From Saccoglossus kowalevskii (Eukaryota; Hemichordata; Enteropneusta; Harrimaniidae): a DNA stretch of 62,295 nucleotides. This document shows, one piece after another, positions 1 to 48,193 of the stretch; position 1 is the first letter of the stretch, and the number at the start of each line of letters is the position of its first letter. Made by a program: the position numbers and the translations under genes. Below the pieces are notes generated by a model. That model saw nothing but the letters and a program-made list of their open reading frames with translations, was not told the DNA's origin and did no database searches. Location: assembly GCF_000003605.2 (NCBI RefSeq), contig NW_003151793.1, positions 49,344 through 111,638 on the forward strand, given 5' to 3'.

Positions 1-3000
1 CAATTCGTTTCAAAATCTGGTCAAGGATGGCCGATTGACAGCCATCTGACTTTTTGGCCTTACTACTATATTTCCACAATTTATGAACCATTTTCATTCG
101 TATTTGGCACATACATCATACATATCAGTGTGTTTCATAATCAGATCAAAGATGGCTGAATAACGACTGTTTTTATTTTGGCCATATTACTATGACACGA
201 AACACATGTTTTGATGTAAATAAACAATCTGTTGTATACGCCACTTGGAACTCAAGTTTCAAGGACATGCTCGCGACAACCCCTCCGCTTTAATATGACG
301 AGCACAAAGAGAACTTAACAGGGACTGTGTCATTTTCAATGACTTGTTATAATATATATTTCATTTTACTACAAAACTACAACAGAGCTAGAGTTGTTCG
401 CGGTGAAACAGCCGCCTTGAAGTCGATGCAACTTCAACTAGCCATTTCTTACCTTGAAATAAAAAAAAAAAACTAAAAATTCGAAGAGCATTGGGGAAAA
501 ATATTAATAATCATTCTTATCAATCGCTTGCTTTATTTTATTCGAATCCATGAAATTCATGAGATTTTTGACATTTGTTGGCAACTTCCGCTCTAAAAAA
601 GATTGAAAATGTGGGTGTGGTTCTTTTGCGAGGTCCTGTTGATAATACGGACAAATATGGTTCTGTCACCCAGGTTGTGCTCCGATCATGTGACTTTCAG
701 CCAATCTATATTTGACGCTAATTGAAGAGTGGTCGTACCATCCAATTTCCGGCGTCGATTCACATGGTGTTTTTGTGCTGTAACAGGCTTCAAAATTATT
801 CGCTGAAAAACATCGGTATATTTTGACAAACGGATGGAATTTGACCTCAGTTCAAAAAGAAAATACTAGGCTCAGATACATTAGAGTCCACGGTTGGGAA
901 ATAAAGTAAACCAGAGAAGAGTCGATGATTTTCAGCCCTGAATCCTGAGTTATGAATTGTTCATCGACTGGCCACCAAATATTTATGGCTATAACTAAAT
1001 TTGACACGTTTTTTTAAGCCCAATAATTTATTCATACTTTTCAAGCTCTGTTCAATTTATTTAGGGCATGTGGCAGTTTTTAGTAGAAAATATTTTTTGT
1101 GGGAACACTTTTATGGTATAGACTGAACTCATTCAATGATAGTGACTTATTTTTGAAAATTGAATGTCAAATTTTACCAGACATGGACCGACGTGGATAT
1201 GATATCGTTATTTTTGGAATTAATCATTAATATTTCTTCGTTTCTCTGCTCTGTCAAAATGAGTTATCTATGCTTTTTTCACGTAACTGTCATTAAAATA
1301 ATAAAAAATAGTACATCTAGAACAAGCACCCAAAACATGTAACAAGAGGTCACACTTCAGTTGCTTTCACGATACAAGTGTAATACAACTTACTATTAGA
1401 TTTGAAGTGTCGTTCAGAATGTAATAATTGTTAATACTAGTTGTATGTTCACACTTTACTATCAAAACTACCATTTCGACCACCCATGTGCCAGTGATCC
1501 GTGTTTGGGCGAGCGATTAAAATGCGCTCGGTTTCCGGTCGGACAAGACCGCATTGTCGGAAATTAAGCGATAAGCGGTTGATGTAAAAGCGGAAGGTTG
1601 GGCGAAATGAGTACTGTATGCCCGGACTGTATGACCATGTTTCTCAGACGAAGTCTCAACTGACAATAATGCTGACAATGGACGTTAGATAAACATGCAT
1701 TGTTTGCGACGGAAAGCTTATCACCCGTTACATGTATATCAGAATTGTCAACAACGAGTATACAGATAAGATGTTATCATTTAAACCCTTCCAAAGATAA
1801 ACATTATGCAAATATCCTCGAAACGGCAGTTGTAGTCTTTTCTTTTAGCGTTTTAAAACACTAATTTAAGCAACGTTATTTCGCAATTTCGATCTTTTGT
1901 AAACCTGAGATGATGTGTCGAGGTCTAAAGTAACCGTTTTATCAATTTTTGAAAAATCAAGAAAAAAGTGAAAATTTCCCTTCTCGCTACCTTAAGACTC
2001 TTGTGACCCAATGTGTAAAATGGCTGCTGTTATATATAGTGTTTGCCGTCTTCACAGTTGCTCCATGAAAAACCTCCCCATGAATCTTAGAATATAGAAG
2101 TATAGAATAAGAAACCTGTCTCAAACCTAAAGTAGTACCTTTTCTAAACTGATACTGATATCCATGTTTTTTTGTTTATTATTGTTGAGTATAGTGCAGT
2201 ATAAATTGTTAATTTTTCTCAATTCTCCCTGATCTTAGATTTTCAAGTTAAGCCTAAACAGCATATTTACTGTATATACAATTTTAAATAAGACAGATTA
2301 ATGGCATAAACAATTGTCCCATGATTCCTTGGTTGAGTCCCATGGATTGGCCCCCCCCTTCTCTGAAGTTTTGTCTTCTTTCATTGGAACTGTAAGCAAA
2401 ATTTTTGTTATGGAGCAGACTCCTCAGCCTGGTTGAAATCCATGTATATCAATTACCTACTTTGTTTAAATGGGTTTATGTGGCCTCATTAATATGCATA
2501 AGTGTAATTTCTCAAGCACTGTTGCAGATAAGGACATGCAACTTGTGCTATAATAAAGTCATTTGTCAAGAAATATGACCTCATTAATATGCATAAATGT
2601 AATATTTAAGACAAAGACAAGTCTGTGGTCGGAATAAAACATACTTTAATGATTCTGCTTTATGTGAATTGCAGATATGCTTCTAATATAGTAAATACAG
2701 TGTTCCTTATTTGTACTTCATGCCTGCAATACCCTTAGCACATGGGAGTTCTTTCTAAGCTTTCTTTTGATTGAATGACTATGACTAACAATCGTTTTTT
2801 CCACAGCTTTTCCATCATGTACTATTGTAACATTTTGTATCTGTAGTAATTTGTGTTTACTATGTGATTATTACATGTCTGTTTCTGCAAGTACATTTTG
2901 TTATTTTATCTATCTTGACTAGTACTAGATCATGTGACCACCATTGAATGAATCAAAACAAGCAATTAAGAAATGCCACTGACTGGATGTTAATTTGTTT

Positions 3001-3010
3001 TATTTTTCAG
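1..3010. other. 5' flank / upstream intron of the zinc-finger gene; no coding exon recognised
   Basis: AT-rich sequence with many stops in all frames. Earlier exons of the zinc-finger gene must lie in this stretch or before the window, because the exon at 3011 begins inside a codon, but I could not pick one out. Two things stand out: the right end of a TTAA-flanked inverted-repeat element near 290, and a 25-bp direct repeat containing ATTAATATGCATAA at 2484-2508 and 2579-2603. Confidence 0.5.
270..293. mobile_element. Family 2 TTAA element, copy A, right end only
   Basis: GCGACAACCCCTCCGCTTTAA matches the right end of the element at 8548-8788. Further left (about 218-270), TAAATAAACAAT and GTTGTATACGCC resemble the inverted interior of copy C. 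No left end was found, so the copy is truncated or its outer part is too diverged. Confidence 0.45.
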
Positions 3011-5053
3011 ACGATGGTATTATCTACTTCAGAGAAGGGAGGGAGAGGGTGCAGTGTAAAACATGTGACAAATGGTTACTGAAACAGGACTTTGAAGAGC
3101 ATGAGAATATACATACGGGGAGCAAACCACATGAATGCAACGAATGTGGCAAAGGGTTTGCTCAAAAAGCTGGACTTGGTGTACACATGAAAAAGGTACT
3201 ATGCAGCTATCATGTTACCTTATTAATCCTCTTTTCTAAAAATGGAAATACAATCAGCTTGTACCTTTGCTTGATTCCATGGAAACATAGCTAACTCTTG
3301 TGGGAATTTGGGGGAATTTTGACAGTGTGAAGGGTTTACTAAAGTGAAAAAATTGATTGCAATTATGTCTTGTCACATGTCATTCTGGCGCCCTCTACAG
3401 GTGGAATATATGCATTATACATATATTTACTGTAAGTTTGGTCCTTTTGGTTTTTTTTCAAATTAAATACAGAAACAAGACTTAATAATGTACATGTACA
3501 CTTCAATCCAAATTTATCCGCCAATTATAACATGCATCAAGGCATGCCTGGGATGATTTCAGTCAAAGTTGATGTGAATATCACACATGTAGTCAGTGTA
3601 AGCATTGATGTTGGGATTTTGTCATCAATCTTCACTGGATTTTATTTTTGTTTACTTGACTGATTTAGTGCCCAAGATTCTCGACTCTAGAAAACATATT
3701 TTTAGCTCCGCTGTTCGTCGTTGTCAAACCGCAAGTACCTTGGATGGTTTTTTCTCAAATTTGTTCATATCATGTCAAAATCTCAAATTCTCTAATTTTG
3801 ATGAATATTTTTGTCATTTTTGGTAAAAAGTGATATTTTCAGCTTCTTGTTAAAAACCACAAGTCTGATTGCTTTGATATTACATATATAAGTAATACAA
3901 TATACATTAAATTTTATTATTTGGAACTAGGTTTCATGACTAGATAGTCAAGTTTAGAGAGTTTTTTATCGGATAGGCCCCAAGTCGAACTTGACCTCAA
4001 AATTTAAAATCTCTAAAAAGTTGCTCAAGCATGTGCACTGAAAAAAAAAGTTTATGCTTTAAAGTAGAAGCCTACTCATGAATGCAAAAACCCAGTATTT
4101 ATTCATTTTCCAATAAATTATACTAAAGGGCATTATAAGGATATTGAATTAAAAAAAAAGTTCGGGGTCACCAGCTTAATTTTCAAGAAAATTATGGTTG
4201 TATTTTAGTGGATAGTGGCAATTTTGGCAGTATTATAATGTTTTACCGTAGGTTCGGAATTTATGGCAGAGATACGTCATATCTCAATTTGTAGCCTGGT
4301 GACATAGGCTAGAAAAATCATACATTGTTTAATGGTGGGGTACTTATTGTTGTCTTAAAATATTTTAAAAAATCTTAAAAAATCTGGGTTTTAAAAAATA
4401 TCCAAAAATGCAATTAACATTGTGTTCCATGGAATTGTTCTAAAAATAGCGATTTTTGTAAAATAATAGAACAAGTTTCTCAAAATATGTCACTGTAACA
4501 CACAATAGAATGCCATTTAGTGGTGCCATGGGACAGTAACTTCATGATTTTACTTGATAGACCAATGAACGCTCATGCGATTTCTGACCAACGTCTCCAA
4601 AATTAGGAGTAGGATTCTCCCTTAAATATAAGATCAAAAAGCAGAATAATTGAAGAAGACCTGATTGAAATCTTCAAAAACTTACAATTAAATAAATATG
4701 CTTAACTTACTTTAAATTATTTCTTTCAGTCACATTCAGATGAGAAAAACTATAAGTGTGATATTTGCACAAAAGCTTTCAAACTGAAGAGTTACCTCAG
4801 GCAACACATGGTGACCCATTCAGCTGAAAAACCCCACGAGTGCTCGGTATGCGGCAAGCGATTCACTCGAAAAGCATTTATGAAGAAACATGAAAAACGT
4901 CACATCGATTCCAAAGACGGGAGCAAGGATGATGTAAAGGACGAAGTGGAGGAGGGAGAAATGAAGAAAAGTGATGACGAAAAAGATGATAAGTCAGAAG
5001 ATGGTAAAGAGGAGAGCGATGTGGATACCAAGAAGGAGGAGGAAGATTTGTAG
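3011..5053 (+). CDS. C2H2 zinc-finger protein, 3' part (two exons: 3011-3195 and 4730-5053)
   Basis: This is the C-terminal part of a C2H2 zinc-finger protein, probably a nuclear nucleic-acid-binding regulator. Exon 3011-3195 follows a TTTTTCAG acceptor and ends at AAG|GTACTA. Exon 4730-5053 follows TTTCTTTCAG and ends in TAG. Joining them keeps the frame and rebuilds finger 2 across the junction (C-x2-C-x12-H-x4-H), which is strong support for the splice. Fingers 3 and 4 are canonical (CDIC...H-x3-H, CSVC...H-x3-H), with linkers close to TGEKPY/HEC. The first finger (CKTC...HENIH) has 11 instead of 12 residues between the second Cys and the first His and lacks the usual core Phe, so it may be degenerate. 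After finger 4 comes a roughly 50-residue tail of alternating Lys and Asp/Glu with no further domain. At least 168 residues are present and the N-terminus is missing. The family is certain; the orthologue is not recognisable. Confidence 0.85.
3196..4729 (+). other. Intron between the two zinc-finger exons
   Basis: A 1,534-base GT-AG intron. ORFs inside it are short, AT-rich and unlike any family I know. No repeat element or RNA gene recognised. Confidence 0.7.
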
Positions 5054-9720: not shown

Positions 9721-10347
9721 GTGTGAAAGAATCATACATAGACATGGAATTGACCAACCATAATGTTCGCCATCCTCAACATTTACATATATGTACTTGG
9801 TCAGTGTGAAAGAATCATACATAGACATGGAATTGACCAACCATAATGTTCGCCATCCTCAACATTTACATATATGTACTTGGTCAGTGTGAAAGAATCA
9901 TACATAGACATGGAATTGACCAACCATAATGTTCGCCATCCTCAACATTTACATATATGTACTTGGTCAGTGTGAAAGAATCATACATAGACATGGAATT
10001 GACCAACCATAATGTTCGCCATCCTCAACATTTACATATATGTACTTGGTCAGTGTGAAATAATCATACATAGACATGGAATTGACCAACCATAATGTTC
10101 ACCATTCTCAACATTTACATATATGTACTTGGTCAGTGTGAAAGAATCATACATAGACATGGAATTGACAAACCATAATGTTCACCACCCTCAACATTTA
10201 CATATATGTACTTGGTCAGTGTGAAAGAATCATACATAGACATGGAATTGACAAACCATAATGTTCACCACCCTCAACATTTACATATATGTACTTGGTC
10301 AGTGTGAAAGAATCATACATAGACATGGAATTGACCAACCATAATGT
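9721..10347. repeat. 83-bp minisatellite, about 7.5 head-to-tail copies
   Basis: Units start at 9721, 9804, 9887, 9970, 10053, 10136, 10219 and 10302 with GTGTGAAAGAATCATACATA; the last stops after 46 bases. Copies 1-4 are nearly identical. Copy 5 carries GAAATAATC and TTCACCATTC, and copies 6 and 7 share ACAAACC and TTCACCACCC. The variants cluster by position, the mark of recent unequal exchange. The unit length is not a multiple of three and no long ORF runs through it. There are no unique spacers, so it is not a CRISPR array. Confidence 0.95.
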
Positions 10348-12774: not shown

Positions 12775-22084
<9,310 letters not shown>

Positions 22085-23030: not shown

Positions 23031-24224
23031 TTGACTCAGTGTTTTTTAGTAGTAAAGTGGTTTGTATTCTGTAGTATTATTTGTATAGCTTCCACACTAA
23101 GTCAGAATTATTTGTATATCATGAGACCGAAGACGAAGTATTTCGTCAAACGTCTTCATTTGTATAGTTATCCAAACTAAATCCCATATGATGTACGGGT
23201 TATAGATATTGACTCCCAATGCTAACCTCATGATTCGAACTATTCCAATAGCCGAGAAAGAGCTATCATTCACCTCTAAAATTCCAAACCTTGACACTTT
23301 GCCAAGCTCTAAGTTTAAAAGCGATTAACACCAAAACAGTATGTGAATTACTAATCTGCATAATACACCAACTGGAATTGTGATTGTTAATTGTATGCAT
23401 ATGAAAAAAACCGCGGTGATATAAAATCTACTGAAATCCAGTGTAGAGATACAAAAATAAACAAGGTGCAATACTTTTTAACTTGACACCTTACGTAGTT
23501 ATGAAATGATCGAAATCAACAGTATGGACATTAAATTTTATGCTGTAAATCGTTAATAAAAATCGAGTTGTAAAGTGTGGGAATCGGGACTAGGTTTGAT
23601 ACCTATAGGTCATCAAAACTAGTTTGCATATTTGCTGTACATTTCCTGAACACTAAATTTGAAGTTGGTGTCGTTTATGGGAGCGTAACTTCTGTAGCAG
23701 GGCATTGCTTCATATATACTGTCAGTCAAATATATGTACAAGGCTCTCTGATTGGCCTGACTGTTAGTTGTTAGGACTGGGGAGCCAATCGGGCACATTC
23801 TTGTAAGTAGTAGCTTCGCTTTTAGTTTGCGTTGTTACTGCTCCATGCAATACTTTCCGTGTGTCGTGCCTTATCCACTCCAACCATATTTGGAGATCTC
23901 TACTACGCTGTACCAAAGGCACAGTTTTAACTAGTGTGAATTTCAACTTTAAGCTGTCGTAGTAATATAAATTAATCGTTTATCTTGAAATTAAAATTTT
24001 AATTAAATCAAGCAATAATTGTCAATATAATAATCACTTATTCGTCGCGATCTTATCTTTCAATAGAAATTCAACATAGTTCTGCATGATCATACATACT
24101 TACGTAATACGAAGTGCAACGACGTCATGTGTGGGGACGTGGTTATTTTGTTACAATTAACATGCAGCCAATCAAATACTTTCACACCGACCTCTTTGGT
24201 ATTACCTGGTCCTTAATAGTGTCT
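23031..24224. other. Intergenic, no gene recognised
   Basis: Includes about 23120-23345, whose reverse complement resembles 7980-8150 (shared core near GAGCTTGSCRARGT). Remaining ORFs are short and featureless. Confidence 0.5.
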
Positions 24225-24306
24225 GCTGTGATGGACGAGTGGTTACGGCGTTGGACTCGAAATCCAATAGCGTCTCCCCACACAGGTTCGAACCCTGTTC
24301 GCAGCG
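24225..24306 (+). pseudogene. tRNA-Ser(CGA) pseudogene (near-full-length)
   Basis: 82 bases aligned along the whole tRNA-Ser(CGA) with anticodon loop CTCGAAA and box B intact and a TTTTT stop. The D stem reads GAC against GGC (mispaired), box A is TGGACGAGTGG, and the variable arm GGGG/CCCC has become AGCG/CCCC. The acceptor stem still pairs, with one G-T. Most likely a recently decayed gene; residual function cannot be excluded. Confidence 0.75.
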
Positions 24307-24625
24307 ATATTTTTACTAAATAAATAATAACACAATTTGTGGGGACAATATTACGATTCGTTGTCTGCCCAGAGGATGTTGATCATGACCATAATATTGA
24401 AGTCAATGCGAAGTTACTTACACGATTCCCGGCTATTGTACCTATTTATTAAACCTAGCAAATAGACCAATCAGCTATATGCTTCCACCCTCAAATAATA
24501 TCATCACAAGTCTACATATGTATGCAAGCTACTAATAACTGGCAAAACTATATTTATGAATCTTGAAAAGTTGTAAAACTATTGTGCAACACAAAAATGT
24601 AAGACCTGTTCACATATTGCTGTCA

Positions 24626-26435: not shown

Positions 26436-26517
26436 GCTGTGATGGCCGAGTGGTTAAGGCGTTGGACTCGAAATCCAATGGGGTCTCCCCGCACAGGTTC
26501 GAACCCTGTTCGCAGCG
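26436..26517 (+). tRNA. tRNA-Ser (anticodon CGA)
   Basis: 82 bases, identical to the copy at 17296 except for GCTGTGA in place of GCTGCGA in the acceptor strand (a G-U pair). D, anticodon, variable and T arms are intact, box A and box B are canonical, and a run of seven T follows at about 26522. A functional gene is likely. Confidence 0.95.
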
Positions 26518-32388: not shown

Positions 32389-33396
32389 TTACATTGGGTG
32401 TTCTGGGATACCTAACTGCTGTTTGATCAATAGCATGCGTGCTTTCACGAATTCATAGAATTCTACTTCTAAAGCCATGCGCTCACGTTGAATTTTTAAG
32501 ACTTCTTCTGATGGCTCTATCTTGGATTTGGACTTAAACTGGTCTCGGATTGTACTGAGGGTAATCTTATATGATTCTAGCGCCCCTTCAAAAAACTGGG
32601 GAAGGAGGCGTTCTAAAACTACAAGGGTGGAGTTAAAGTCCTCGGTTATACCGACGAACAGGAATTTTTCGACTACGTTTCGCTTGGCTTGCTCTACGGC
32701 CCATCGACTGGCAGTACGGCATTCGTCGTCTTGTCCACAGAAGTAGGGTACAACTCGGAAAGTGTTCTGCGTACTACATTCAAATTTGTCTTGTAATACA
32801 CACTGGTCGAAAGTTTGGTTAAAATCTTCAGCTGCTCCGGTCCATTCTGGTACAGAGAAGGAGTCGCCGAATCGCGTGTAGTAGTAGAAGGAGACAAGTC
32901 TACTGACAGGGTCTCTGGTCAAGTTGATCCAGGTTGGAGGCTTAGATGCATGGCGCTCAAAATCCACGTAGTCCAAGTGACGGTCGTAGATGAATGGAGG
33001 GGTTATAACTTCTATTTCTTTGGTGAATATCTTCTGGCCTGTCTCGTTGAGGAAGACTTTCACGAATACCGGACTTCTTGCGCGCTCAAACTTGTTTTTC
33101 TGCGACAGCTTCATAATGACGTTTAGGAGACTTCGACTACCTACTTTGCTCACTCTGTTGAAAATGACTCGAGACTCGTTCCAGGCTGCAGTTGGGTCGA
33201 GCGGTAACCCCATGTCAGGAGTCAGGGGTGAGTCACCTGTGAATCGCAAACTGGTATCGAGTAATCCAGAAGAGTAGAGCGGTGAAATGTGGTTGGATGT
33301 GAGTTTGAAGACTACGGCAAAGAAGAGAACTGTTCCCAGCATAAGAACTAGTCTGGCCGGTGAGATAAAAATACGCCCTATTCGTATCATCAGCAT
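32389..33396 (-). CDS. Uronyl 2-O-sulfotransferase-like protein A (335 residues)
   Basis: Predicted Golgi type II sulfotransferase that moves sulfate from PAPS to C2 of a uronic acid in chondroitin/dermatan-type chains. Order: cytosolic tail 1-15, signal anchor about 16-33, short stem, sulfotransferase domain about 75-330. The PAPS 5'-phosphosulfate loop is FNRVSK84VGSRS (UST has KCGSR). The catalytic-base region IYDRH140LDYVDF keeps the His. The 3'-phosphate loop is R161DPVSRLVS169FYYYTRFGD. C-terminal hallmarks are CVLQDKFEC, PYFCG...CR, WAVEQAKRNV, VGI.EDFN and the EFYEFVK helix. N-x-S/T sites at 73, 117, 158, 193 and 255. Coding region in one exon, start ATG at 33396 with a second ATG two codons later. 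Family assignment is very secure; substrate specificity is inferred. Confidence 0.93.
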   Translation of the reverse strand: MLMIRIGRIFISPARLVLMLGTVLFFAVVFKLTSNHISPLYSSGLLDTSLRFTGDSPLTPDMGLPLDPTAAWNESRVIFNRVSKVGSRSLLNVIMKLSQKNKFERARSPVFVKVFLNETGQKIFTKEIEVITPPFIYDRHLDYVDFERHASKPPTWINLTRDPVSRLVSFYYYTRFGDSFSVPEWTGAAEDFNQTFDQCVLQDKFECSTQNTFRVVPYFCGQDDECRTASRWAVEQAKRNVVEKFLFVGITEDFNSTLVVLERLLPQFFEGALESYKITLSTIRDQFKSKSKIEPSEEVLKIQRERMALEVEFYEFVKARMLLIKQQLGIPEHPM

Positions 33397-37481: not shown

Positions 37482-38675
37482 ATGAGGACGGAGGTTTATA
37501 TGCGATATTTCCGTACTTTCGTCACGCCGACACGTTTTTTGATGACGAGTACTTTCATGACTTGTCTTATTGTCATTGTGTTTGTTACATCACCAAGACG
37601 ACTGCCGTATGCACCGGGTGCTGCCAGATATTCGTCTGCAATGAACGTTGACACTAGGTCACTCACGAATGACCAACCCGCGGCGCCCGACCCACCTGCA
37701 GCGGTCGTACCTGATGCCGACCCTCCCGCTGAGGAAAAGCCCCCAGAAGCTGCCGGCGACGAAGCAGCAGCCCCGGCGGCCCCAGCGGCCCCAGCGGCTC
37801 CAGCGGCACCGGCAGCGCCTGCCGCCCCGGTGGCTGCTGGCGACGTTGACCCAGCTGCTGGTATACCATTTGACGTAACTAAGTACCACAGTCTTGATAG
37901 AGCAGTGTACAATCGTGTCGATAAATGCGGCAGTCGTAGTCTTCTCTACACCATAGATCAGCTGACAGTGAAACACGGCTACGAAAAAGTGACAAGTGCC
38001 GAGTACAACAAAAAGAATTTGACGGTGGAAGAACAAAAAGAACTCGTTGACGAAATCAACGGTCTCAAGCCTCCCTTCATTTATGATAGGCATGTTTACT
38101 TTACTCCGTTCCAGAGGTTCGGTTCCAAGAACCCTGTCTGGTTTAATTTGATCAGGGACCCACTTCGCCGGTTCATCTCCCTCTATTACTTCAAGCGTTT
38201 CGGCGATCCTCACACCGCTGCGGGAGAATTCAACATGCCAGAGGAAATCGTCAATCGATCATTTGACGACTGCGTTCTTAACAACGTCTTTGAATGCAGC
38301 ACCAAAGCAAGTTTCCGCGTAGTGCCTTATTTCTGTGGACACGGGGAAGGATGCCGAATGCCGAACAAATGGGCAGTTGAGCAAGCTAAGAAAAACGTAG
38401 TCGAAAATTACGCCTTGGTGGGAGTTCTGGAAGAGTTTAACACCACTTTAAAAGTTTTGGACAAGCTTGTACCGCAATATTTCGAGGGTGCCATGGCAGC
38501 GTACGAGTCAGTACAAAGTACAGGTATCGTTGAAAAGTTCAAGTCTTATGCCGGTAAGCCACCCAGTGAAGAAGCCATGGCCAAGATGAAAGAACGACTA
38601 GGTTTAGAATATGACTTTTATAATTTTGTAGTTGCAAGACAGCATGCTTTAAAGGACATGCTTGGAATAGAATAA
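37482..38675 (+). CDS. Uronyl 2-O-sulfotransferase-like protein B (397 residues), with Ala/Pro-rich stalk
   Basis: PAPS-dependent Golgi sulfotransferase of the UST/HS2ST family. Start at 37482 (GCAGCCATGA, good context); the frame runs 17 codons further up without an ATG. Tail 1-18, signal anchor about 19-36, then a stalk 65-128 rich in Pro and Ala with a perfect PAA tripeptide run (about 98-116) encoded by GCGGCCCCA-like repeats. The catalytic domain follows: YNRVDK148CGSRS, IYDRH204VYF, R225DPLRRFIS233LYYFKRFGD, CVLNNVFEC, PYFCG...CR, EQAKKNV, VGVLEEFN and the EYDFYNFV helix. All catalytic positions expected for the family are present, so this is the best candidate for an active enzyme in the cluster. 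Repeat content makes the stalk prone to length change. Confidence 0.95.
   Translation: MRTEVYMRYFRTFVTPTRFLMTSTFMTCLIVIVFVTSPRRLPYAPGAARYSSAMNVDTRSLTNDQPAAPDPPAAVVPDADPPAEEKPPEAAGDEAAAPAAPAAPAAPAAPAAPAAPVAAGDVDPAAGIPFDVTKYHSLDRAVYNRVDKCGSRSLLYTIDQLTVKHGYEKVTSAEYNKKNLTVEEQKELVDEINGLKPPFIYDRHVYFTPFQRFGSKNPVWFNLIRDPLRRFISLYYFKRFGDPHTAAGEFNMPEEIVNRSFDDCVLNNVFECSTKASFRVVPYFCGHGEGCRMPNKWAVEQAKKNVVENYALVGVLEEFNTTLKVLDKLVPQYFEGAMAAYESVQSTGIVEKFKSYAGKPPSEEAMAKMKERLGLEYDFYNFVVARQHALKDMLGIE
37785..37845 (+). repeat. In-frame GC-rich repeat coding for (PAA)n in the stalk
   Basis: Six or so 9-base units of the type GCGGCCCCA/GCGGCTCCA in an otherwise AT-rich locus, open in several frames on both strands, which explains the overlapping antisense ORFs. 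The translated run is APAAPAAPAAP and so on. Confidence 0.85.
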
Positions 38676-46248: not shown

Positions 46249-47487
46249 TCAGCTATCTGTATTGTCAATGACTAATACGTTTTCAGTAGTTTCTTCGTCG
46301 GTAGCTTGATTTTGGCCTTCAATGTCTTGGTTCATTTCAGCGTCGACACCGAGTTCGTCAGCTACTTCTGTTTTATTATCATGAACGTCCGCAATACTAG
46401 CTTGGCTAGGCATGCTTTCAAGGGCACTAAATTGTTTTTTCATAAACATGAGTCGCTGTTTAACAAAATCATAGAATTCATATTCCAGGGCCAGTCTCTT
46501 CTTCATTTCTTCCATCGCTTCAGTTGAGGGAGTATCGTCGGTTTGTGAAGAATAATCTTGAATGACACCAGCATAGATTAGTGATAGGTGAGCGTCTCTA
46601 CTGCCTTTGAAAAACTGCGGAAGGACATTCTCAAGAACAAACAGGGTTGAATTTAAATCTTCGAGAATCCCTACTACATCAAAATTGTCAATGACGTTTC
46701 TCTGCGCAGTTTCTAGGGCCCAGCGATTTGGAATTCGACATCCCGCTCCTTGTCCACAGAAATAAGGTATTACTTGCATGGCATTTTTTTTGTTGCATTC
46801 CTTGTGGTTATTTAACACACACTTATCAAATGTTTGTTTTGCGATAGAGTCTGTAATGTTGGTAAATGTATCTGGCCTCGTTCGCTTATCGCCATAGCGT
46901 TTGTAATAAAACTGAGACATGAATCGCTGGAGAGGGTCTCGAATGAGGCTGATCCAAGATGGACGCTGGGCGCCATAGCGCGGGAAATGTACATAATGTA
47001 TGGATCTGTCGTAGAGCAACGGCAGCTCCAAACTATTAACTTCTGTTAGAAAAGCCTTCTGCGCTTCTGCTCCAGTATACTTGTGCGCCCAAAGCCTACT
47101 AGAACCGTGGTTGAATTTATTCCGAAGCGCAAGTTTCTGCACTATATACAAGAAAGTTCGACTGCCACATTTTTCTACTTTGTTGTATATTACTTTCGTC
47201 TCTTTACATGTTCTGCTGACGTCCATTGGAAGTCCAGCTTCCGGTGTTGGAGGGCGTAATTCAAACACTGGTTCCTTGTATGCGGTCAAATCGGGCGCCA
47301 TGCTTCCTTCTCCCGTGGCAGTATTACGTCCACTGCCCTGAAAGATATTGAGCATGCTAAGAATAAGCAGTATAGCTATGGCAGCCACTGCAGTGCCGCC
47401 TTGGTAATATCGTTTGAGATGGTGAACATGGATATTGCTACCACCGAGTCTTTTGAAGATCAAATCTAACGGAATATCTAACTGCAT
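46249..47487 (-). CDS. Uronyl 2-O-sulfotransferase-like protein C (412 residues), catalytic His replaced by Ser
   Basis: Same fold and order as its neighbours: long cytosolic tail 1-30, signal anchor about 31-49, stem, then YNKVEK107CGSRT (PAPS loop), R183DPLQRFMS191QFYYKRYGD, CVLNNHKEC, PYFCG...CR, ETAQRNV, VGILEDLN and EYEFYDFVK. At the catalytic-base position, where UST has RH and genes A and B have RH, this protein has LYDRS162IHYVHF (codon TCC). PAPS-binding motifs are intact. There is an extra acidic C-terminal tail (about 355-412) that the other two lack. Start is the ATG at 47487; the codon before it is GTG. An acceptor (TATTGCAG) at 47515 places a splice in the 5'UTR. Either a pseudoenzyme that still binds PAPS, or an enzyme using His164. 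Confidence 0.93.
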   Translation of the reverse strand: MQLDIPLDLIFKRLGGSNIHVHHLKRYYQGGTAVAAIAILLILSMLNIFQGSGRNTATGEGSMAPDLTAYKEPVFELRPPTPEAGLPMDVSRTCKETKVIYNKVEKCGSRTFLYIVQKLALRNKFNHGSSRLWAHKYTGAEAQKAFLTEVNSLELPLLYDRSIHYVHFPRYGAQRPSWISLIRDPLQRFMSQFYYKRYGDKRTRPDTFTNITDSIAKQTFDKCVLNNHKECNKKNAMQVIPYFCGQGAGCRIPNRWALETAQRNVIDNFDVVGILEDLNSTLFVLENVLPQFFKGSRDAHLSLIYAGVIQDYSSQTDDTPSTEAMEEMKKRLALEYEFYDFVKQRLMFMKKQFSALESMPSQASIADVHDNKTEVADELGVDAEMNQDIEGQNQATDEETTENVLVIDNTDS

Positions 47488-48193
47488 CACGCTTCAAAGA
47501 CAATATTAGTTTGACCTGCAATACAATATAAGCGATATACAAAATTAATTTAAGTACAATTTAAGTACTTTGTTCAGGGTTGGTACATGATGTTATAGTG
47601 AAGAATTACATTTTTTGACAAATATTTTATGGCACGTATTTATCACATTATAATAAACAAATATGACTGGAATTAGTCGTGTTATAGTAGCCGTACGTAT
47701 TACTATATGTGTGTAGCAGATGACACTTGTATCGATATCATGTTACACGTTGCTATCACGCACGACGATACACATGCCAAATAGGAGTATTTTAAATCTG
47801 GTATTATAAAAAAACTAGTCAAAAACAAGGGAAACGTCGACTTGAACATAATATAAACACGATACACATACCGTAGTTTCGTAATTCCGATGGCGACACT
47901 TGTTACCATATATACACCATGTTCACCATGTTAGCCAAGGTCTGATTCGTTATTGTGTAGAAAATAATGTATATACTGCAAAAAGGAATGAGACTCAGAA
48001 ATAAATTTAAAAACAGCATGGCGCGTTGGATGATATACTCCCCAGTTTTGCCTAGCCACTGAACTTGACATATGAAAACAACTGATGTTTTATTGACATT
48101 CATTTTTAATGATTTAACAAAATGGATATCTAATTAGTTGCCGCCCTATGTCCCAACCATTAAACTATCCTAAAACAATGGCGTGGTACTTAC

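Follow-up and report, generated by a model that had tools for sequence, protein, structure and literature searches.

Sulfotransferase genes and other features of the window

The stretch of 62,295 nucleotides of Saccoglossus kowalevskii DNA that was analysed here, hereafter the window, carries three intronless coding sequences with a Sulfotransfer_2 domain. These genes, A, B and C, share 41-47% identity with one another according to tblastn. Paralogue A is located on the plus strand (37482..38672) and paralogue B on the minus strand (32392..33396), as judged from their open reading frames and tblastn matches. Gene C, identified from its product of 412 residues, its Pfam match and its alignment to 4NDZ as a UST/HS2ST-like Golgi-type sulfotransferase gene, occupies positions 46249..47487 of the minus strand including the stop codon (coding sequence 46252-47487). 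The ATG starts at 47487, the stop codon is found at 46251-46249, and the frame is open for 412 codons, as had been stated in the initial annotation. PF03567 (Sulfotransfer_2) was detected in the product of gene C with a score of 50.1 bits, the curated cut-off being 22. No further significant match was obtained inside the window by tblastn.

A hydrophobic N-terminal stretch is present in the hydropathy profile of each of the three proteins. In C, this stretch comprises residues 31-49 (mean hydropathy 2.31) and represents a putative type II membrane anchor. By eye, a putative 3' splice acceptor AG was located just upstream of the ATG of gene C (47516..47517, minus strand), which would belong to an intron in the 5'UTR, and putative acceptors likewise lie shortly 5' of the ATG in A, B and a fourth gene, D, that is described below. 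The pipe locus of Drosophila contains alternative catalytic exons. A pipe-like arrangement of this kind was ruled out for the present locus, because the strand changes from one gene to the next and every gene has its own hydrophobic N-terminus. The C-terminus of C (46252-46428) forms an acidic tail of 59 residues with 16 D/E and 1 K/R. In gene A, by contrast, the stalk includes an Ala/Pro repeat that is encoded by a tandem repeat (37765-37835).

The sites for the sulfate donor PAPS are intact in C. Based on alignment to HS2ST and relatives, the 5' phosphosulfate-binding (PSB) loop K106-C-G-S-R110 is encoded at 47158..47172 and the 3' phosphate-binding segment R183-D-P...S191 at 46915..46941, both on the minus strand. 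The view that both loops are preserved is thus upheld at the level of individual residues: K106 (HS2ST K83), G108-S109-R110, R183 and S191 are all present. The same is true for the four cysteines that had been noted as being of the disulfide type (Cys 223, 231, 244 and 250), which presumably form disulfides in C as well. At the position of HS2ST Arg80, in the N-sulfate pocket, C has a lysine (Lys103; 47179..47181, minus strand), in contrast to the Arg of A, B, D and HS2ST; this residue had gone unmentioned in the initial annotation. The PSB loop of gene B reads KVGSR, with Val, compared to KCGSR in A and C.

Elsewhere in the window, three tRNA-Ser(CGA) genes are located on the plus strand (17296-17377, 24224-24307 and 26436-26517), the other two being 92% and 99% like the first. 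Beside the first of these genes, at 17378-17593, a stretch of 83 bp is repeated at 99% identity on either side of a gap of 50 N (17461-17510), and this repeat looks like an assembly artefact. A tandem array with a unit of 83 bp (7.6 copies, 98% matches) is found at 9721-10347. Two plus-strand open reading frames (2983-3291 and 4706-5050) match C2H2 zinc fingers and are probably exons of a neighbouring gene.

Relatives of gene C in the genome

The assembly from which the window was taken (572 Mb, 4830 contigs; the window corresponds to C4203:49344-111638) was searched with C as the query. At least 18 matching rows were obtained, ten from intronless genes and eight from exons of four multi-exon genes. 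The intronless UST-like set consists of A, B, C and D (L010) on contig C4203, L012 and L017 on C4123, L014-L016 on C2526, and L018 on C2561. Gene D (C4203:117068-117898) is located 5.4 kb beyond the right end of the window, and its core is 52% identical to that of C. The multi-exon genes, which we take to be the UST genes of this animal, are located on contigs C126, C2303, C3286 and C11, and all four have kept the base histidine; for the gene on C11, the exon with this position was seen by a tblastn match only (E 7e-5 to 5e-4). Judging from the search with C and a pattern search, it is unlikely that further copies closer to D than to C were missed.

Genome-wide, at least 71 rows matched PF03567, many of them in long open frames, which points to a large carbohydrate-sulfotransferase repertoire. 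Ten of these loci (L027-L036; open frames of 362-452 residues) were considered as UST-like and rejected, because their scores were far below those of the UST-like genes: six matched the UST-like profile at E-values of 1e-7 to 3e-6 and three at 4e-5 to 2e-3, while L036 gave no match. Scans of prokaryotic and viral sequence collections with two short peptide patterns each returned 87 and 29 pattern stretches, respectively, among which there were 0 relatives.

Two other members of the family are divergent in their own ways. The intronless L018 (C2561:256565-257377, minus strand) has kept the histidine, but its PSB lysine is replaced by Gln and its equivalent of Arg80 by Cys, and REP and KINE stand in place of RDP and RFGD. 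Judged by these residues, L018 probably represents a second, different route to an inactive member. The multi-exon UST-like gene L037 (C11:358000-367900) has RRP for RDP at the 3' phosphate site and RH at the base position.

A serine at the position of the catalytic histidine

The initial annotation had drawn attention to a serine in C at the place where A and B keep the catalytic histidine, and this was borne out. Residues 159-168 of C read YDRSIHYVHF, with Ser162 following the arginine, whereas A reads IYDRHVYF (His204) and B reads IYDRHLDYVDF (His140). The corresponding motif of human UST is RHVHF. In a single-sequence search of the PDB, C matched chicken HS2ST (4NDZ) with an E-value of 2.4e-32 and no gap across the motif, so that the TCC codon of Ser162 (47002..47004, minus strand) falls on HS2ST His142, the catalytic base, and His164 falls on Ser144. 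Both pairings were repeated by an A/B/C profile and by MAFFT. The HS2ST numbering was anchored on the PSB lysine K83 and agrees with the published positions R80, K83, T84, S172, Y173, R288 and T290.

The codon TCC is at least two base changes away from the histidine codons of A (CAT) and B (CAC), and one miscalled base can therefore not account for Ser162. D also has a serine at the base position, encoded by TCT, which is synonymous with the TCC of C. Over the block around this position, D reads YDQSVHYIHFPRYG and C reads YDRSIHYVHFPRYG. In D, Gln replaces the Arg directly before the serine, and Arg is found at the PSB lysine (HS2ST K83). Altogether, the base position is a histidine in 12 of the 14 UST-like genes examined (8 of 10 intronless and 4 of 4 multi-exon genes), and serine is restricted to C and D. 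C thus lacks a residue whose necessity for catalysis is known from HS2ST, as reported in PMC6094399.

Changes linked to the serine

The core alignment comprises 243 ungapped columns, 33 of which are invariant in the eight other intronless genes and HS2ST. C departs from these invariant columns at three positions, namely His>Ser162, Asn>Ser180 and Tyr>His300. The departures of D are confined to these three columns and show identical residues, and 30 of the 33 are therefore kept in both proteins. Ser180 (AGC, 46948..46950, minus strand) corresponds to HS2ST Asn161, and Asn is found here in the other eight intronless genes, the four multi-exon genes and HS2ST. His300 (CAC, 46588..46590, minus strand) corresponds to HS2ST Tyr279 and is Tyr in the other eight intronless genes and HS2ST; the multi-exon genes have F, L or A instead, in a region where their alignment is uncertain. 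When the exon fragments of the multi-exon genes were added, 24 of the 33 columns remained unchanged in the fragments covering them, and C and D depart at two of these (His162 and Asn180). His162 is present in all three covering fragments (apart from the C11 exon, known from tblastn) and Asn180 in all four. Hence, two of the three changes in C and D affect residues that are constant throughout the family, and the third affects a residue that is constant among the other intronless genes and HS2ST.

A further residue particular to C and D is His167 (CAT, 46987..46989, minus strand), five positions after the serine and equivalent to HS2ST Asp147. Among the genes examined, His occurs here in these two only; of the other eight intronless genes, six have Asp, one has Asn and one has Pro, and the multi-exon genes have Asp. 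A degenerate DNA search for the block H-Y-[VI]-H-F-P-R-Y-G matched only C and D in the genome, and the reversed control gave 0 matches. The situation is different for His164 (CAT, 46996..46998, minus strand), two positions after the serine. This position is labile, and His occurs there alongside the normal histidine in 3 of the 8 His-bearing intronless paralogues and 3 of the 4 multi-exon genes, the rest having Y, D, N or V.

Over all 45 pairs of intronless genes, C and D share three changes of this kind, whereas every other pair shares at most one. Other stems of the tree carry 0-2 such changes, and a longer stem leading to four genes has 2. When evolution was simulated on the tree, 30 of 1000 replicates produced three or more changes of this kind; the replicates averaged 25.9 invariant columns, compared to the 33 observed. 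It should be noted that the C/D pair was singled out after the data had been seen. Taken alone, the count of three shared departures is thus modest evidence, and it gains its weight from the identity of one of the residues affected.

Age and constraint of the C/D pair

Between the cores of C and D, pS amounts to 0.81, indicating that the synonymous sites are saturated, and pN to 0.32. These values, together with the 30 of 33 columns that were kept, indicate retention of the sequences by selection. In relative-rate comparisons with HS2ST as the outgroup, C had accumulated 28 changes against 21 in A (p-value of 0.39) and 25 against 13 in B (p-value of 0.07). The acceleration of C relative to A or B is therefore not significant, and the branch of C in the tree is somewhat longer than those of D and A. 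Given the saturated synonymous sites and the open frames of both genes, C and D look like an old, selectively kept subclade, neither an error nor a decaying copy. The earlier proposal that selection has kept protein C thus gains from D, which has this serine too and, among the 33 conserved columns, has otherwise changed only at the two that are also altered in C.

The grouping of C with D as sisters was supported by values of 96.6/95 with all columns and 77.8/70 without four key columns. When all 11 columns specific to C and D were removed, a procedure that is biased against a C+D clade, this clade was not recovered and A+D appeared with 42.7/57. The simplest history is that the serine was acquired once, before the split of C and D, but the tree alone is no proof of this.

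Pseudo-sulfotransferase or remodelled enzyme?

The reading that we favour, with moderate confidence, is that C and D form a selectively maintained pseudo-sulfotransferase branch within an intronless, tandemly duplicated UST/HS2ST-like family. In this branch, the canonical catalytic histidine would most likely have been lost before C and D diverged. Both proteins would probably still fold, reside in the Golgi membrane and bind PAPS or PAP together with an acidic glycan, but they would transfer sulfate poorly or not at all. The basis for this proposal is the HS2ST mutant H142A, which is reported to have less than 1% activity, to appear folded and to keep PAPS and heparin binding (PMC6094399), with its affinity for heparan oligosaccharides being increased about 2-3 fold (PMC6081452). 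Since this mutant still binds without being efficient in transfer, C and D most likely do the same with donor and chain. HS2ST is described as a trimer (PMC6094399), and C and D may have a regulatory role, either by entering mixed oligomers with active paralogues and dominating them, or as glycan-holding regulators. The serine and its presence in D, the preserved PAPS loops and the long-lasting constraint can all be read from the sequences. Our preference is based on the gap-free placement of Ser162 on His142, the serine in D and the histidine in 12 of the 14 genes; on the survival of the PAPS loops at 52% core identity and saturated synonymous sites; on the departure of C and D at the same three columns only, with no significant acceleration of C; and on the Arg at the PSB lysine of D.

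Several observations count against this reading. The PAPS loops of C are complete, which is what an active enzyme would require, and the two histidines that both genes have acquired, His167 and His300, could serve as a base. In the simulation, three shared departures proved only modestly unusual, and this for a pair picked post hoc, and the support for C+D drops or vanishes upon removal of the signature columns. A serious, though less probable, alternative is that C and D are remodelled active sulfotransferases with the base elsewhere (His167, His300 or His164) and perhaps a changed acceptor. We are a little more doubtful of the narrower version in which the base has moved to His167 or His300 in linkage with Asn>Ser180, so that the active site would be arranged in a new way and might act on a new acceptor. 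All three histidines are common to C and D, two of them lie in the block that is confined to these genes, and sulfotransferase families are reported to use His or Glu as the base at positions that do not align between families (PMC11625862). On the other hand, mutation of the base alone nearly abolishes the activity of HS2ST (PMC6094399), the multi-exon genes have F, L or A at position 300 (with uncertain alignment), and an AlphaFold model of A, B and C, built from three sequences, was too poor (mean pLDDT of 42) to place any of these histidines by the acceptor. The idea of the initial annotation that the base had shifted to His164 is weakened. His164 behaves as an ordinary variant of a labile site that is also found in His-bearing relatives, which argues against a newly moved base. 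Within the intronless set, a histidine was gained at positions 167 and 300 in C and D alone, and His167 and His300 would, from these sequences, be better candidates, and His164 the weakest of the three.

An ordinary weak enzyme, in which C and D use the serine site without a dedicated base through substrate-assisted or very slow transfer, would also explain the retention of the PAPS loops. We consider this improbable in view of the residual activity of HS2ST H142A of less than 1% (PMC6094399) and because the widely conserved Asn180 was changed as well, which a merely slow enzyme would not need. Least credible of all is that the serine reflects an error of sequencing or assembly, or that the genes are young pseudogenes in decay. 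The assembly does contain gaps, namely the N run at 17461-17510 in the window and another at positions 1-424 of the L010 locus, outside D. However, the open frames of 414 and 363 residues in C and D and the absence of any additional loss at the 33 columns speak against decay, and a sequencing error was rejected as the source of the serine in view of the two base changes needed and the same serine in D with another codon.

Under either reading, Pfam-style annotation labels C and D as enzymes, because PF03567 ignores the base (PMC11625862). His-less 2-O-sulfotransferase relatives that occur naturally beside His-bearing paralogues allow the contribution of the base to be tested side by side. Should C and D be inactive, they would represent naturally occurring pseudo-sulfotransferases in the glycosaminoglycan pathway and might regulate sulfation through the binding of PAPS or chains. 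Should they be active, they would illustrate how the base of a sulfotransferase can relocate.

Comparison with known sulfotransferases

SULT4A1 belongs to another sulfotransferase family than UST/HS2ST. It is described as a conserved sulfotransferase without detectable activity (PMC12204008), and pseudo-sulfotransferases are named as a recognised class in PMC9539457. Within the UST/HS2ST family, no description of a pseudo-sulfotransferase was found in the open-licence literature searched. According to PMC11625862, sulfotransferases of this fold require the PSB lysine (or Arg), the serine of the 3' site and a base, which can be His or Glu.

The PDB sequences matched by C were those of chicken HS2ST only (4NDZ and 3F5F), at E-values up to 0.001 and, for the A/B/C profile, up to 1. 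C has in common with HS2ST the PSB lysine, the Arg and Ser of the 3' phosphate site and the four cysteines. Together with D it differs from HS2ST by Ser for His142, Ser for Asn161, His for Tyr279 and His for Asp147. C, but not D, furthermore has Lys for Arg80, a residue of the N-sulfate pocket in HS2ST, to which R288 and K350 also belong (PMC6081452). The multi-exon UST-type genes resemble C in their KCGSR PSB loop (4 of 4) and in the same motif neighbourhood, but all four have RH at the base position, whereas C and D lack introns and carry Ser there. A laboratory parallel to C and D is the H142A mutant of HS2ST, in which the same side chain is gone (PMC6094399). However, this mutant carries one engineered change, whereas C and D are natural proteins in which the loss is accompanied by other, linked changes.
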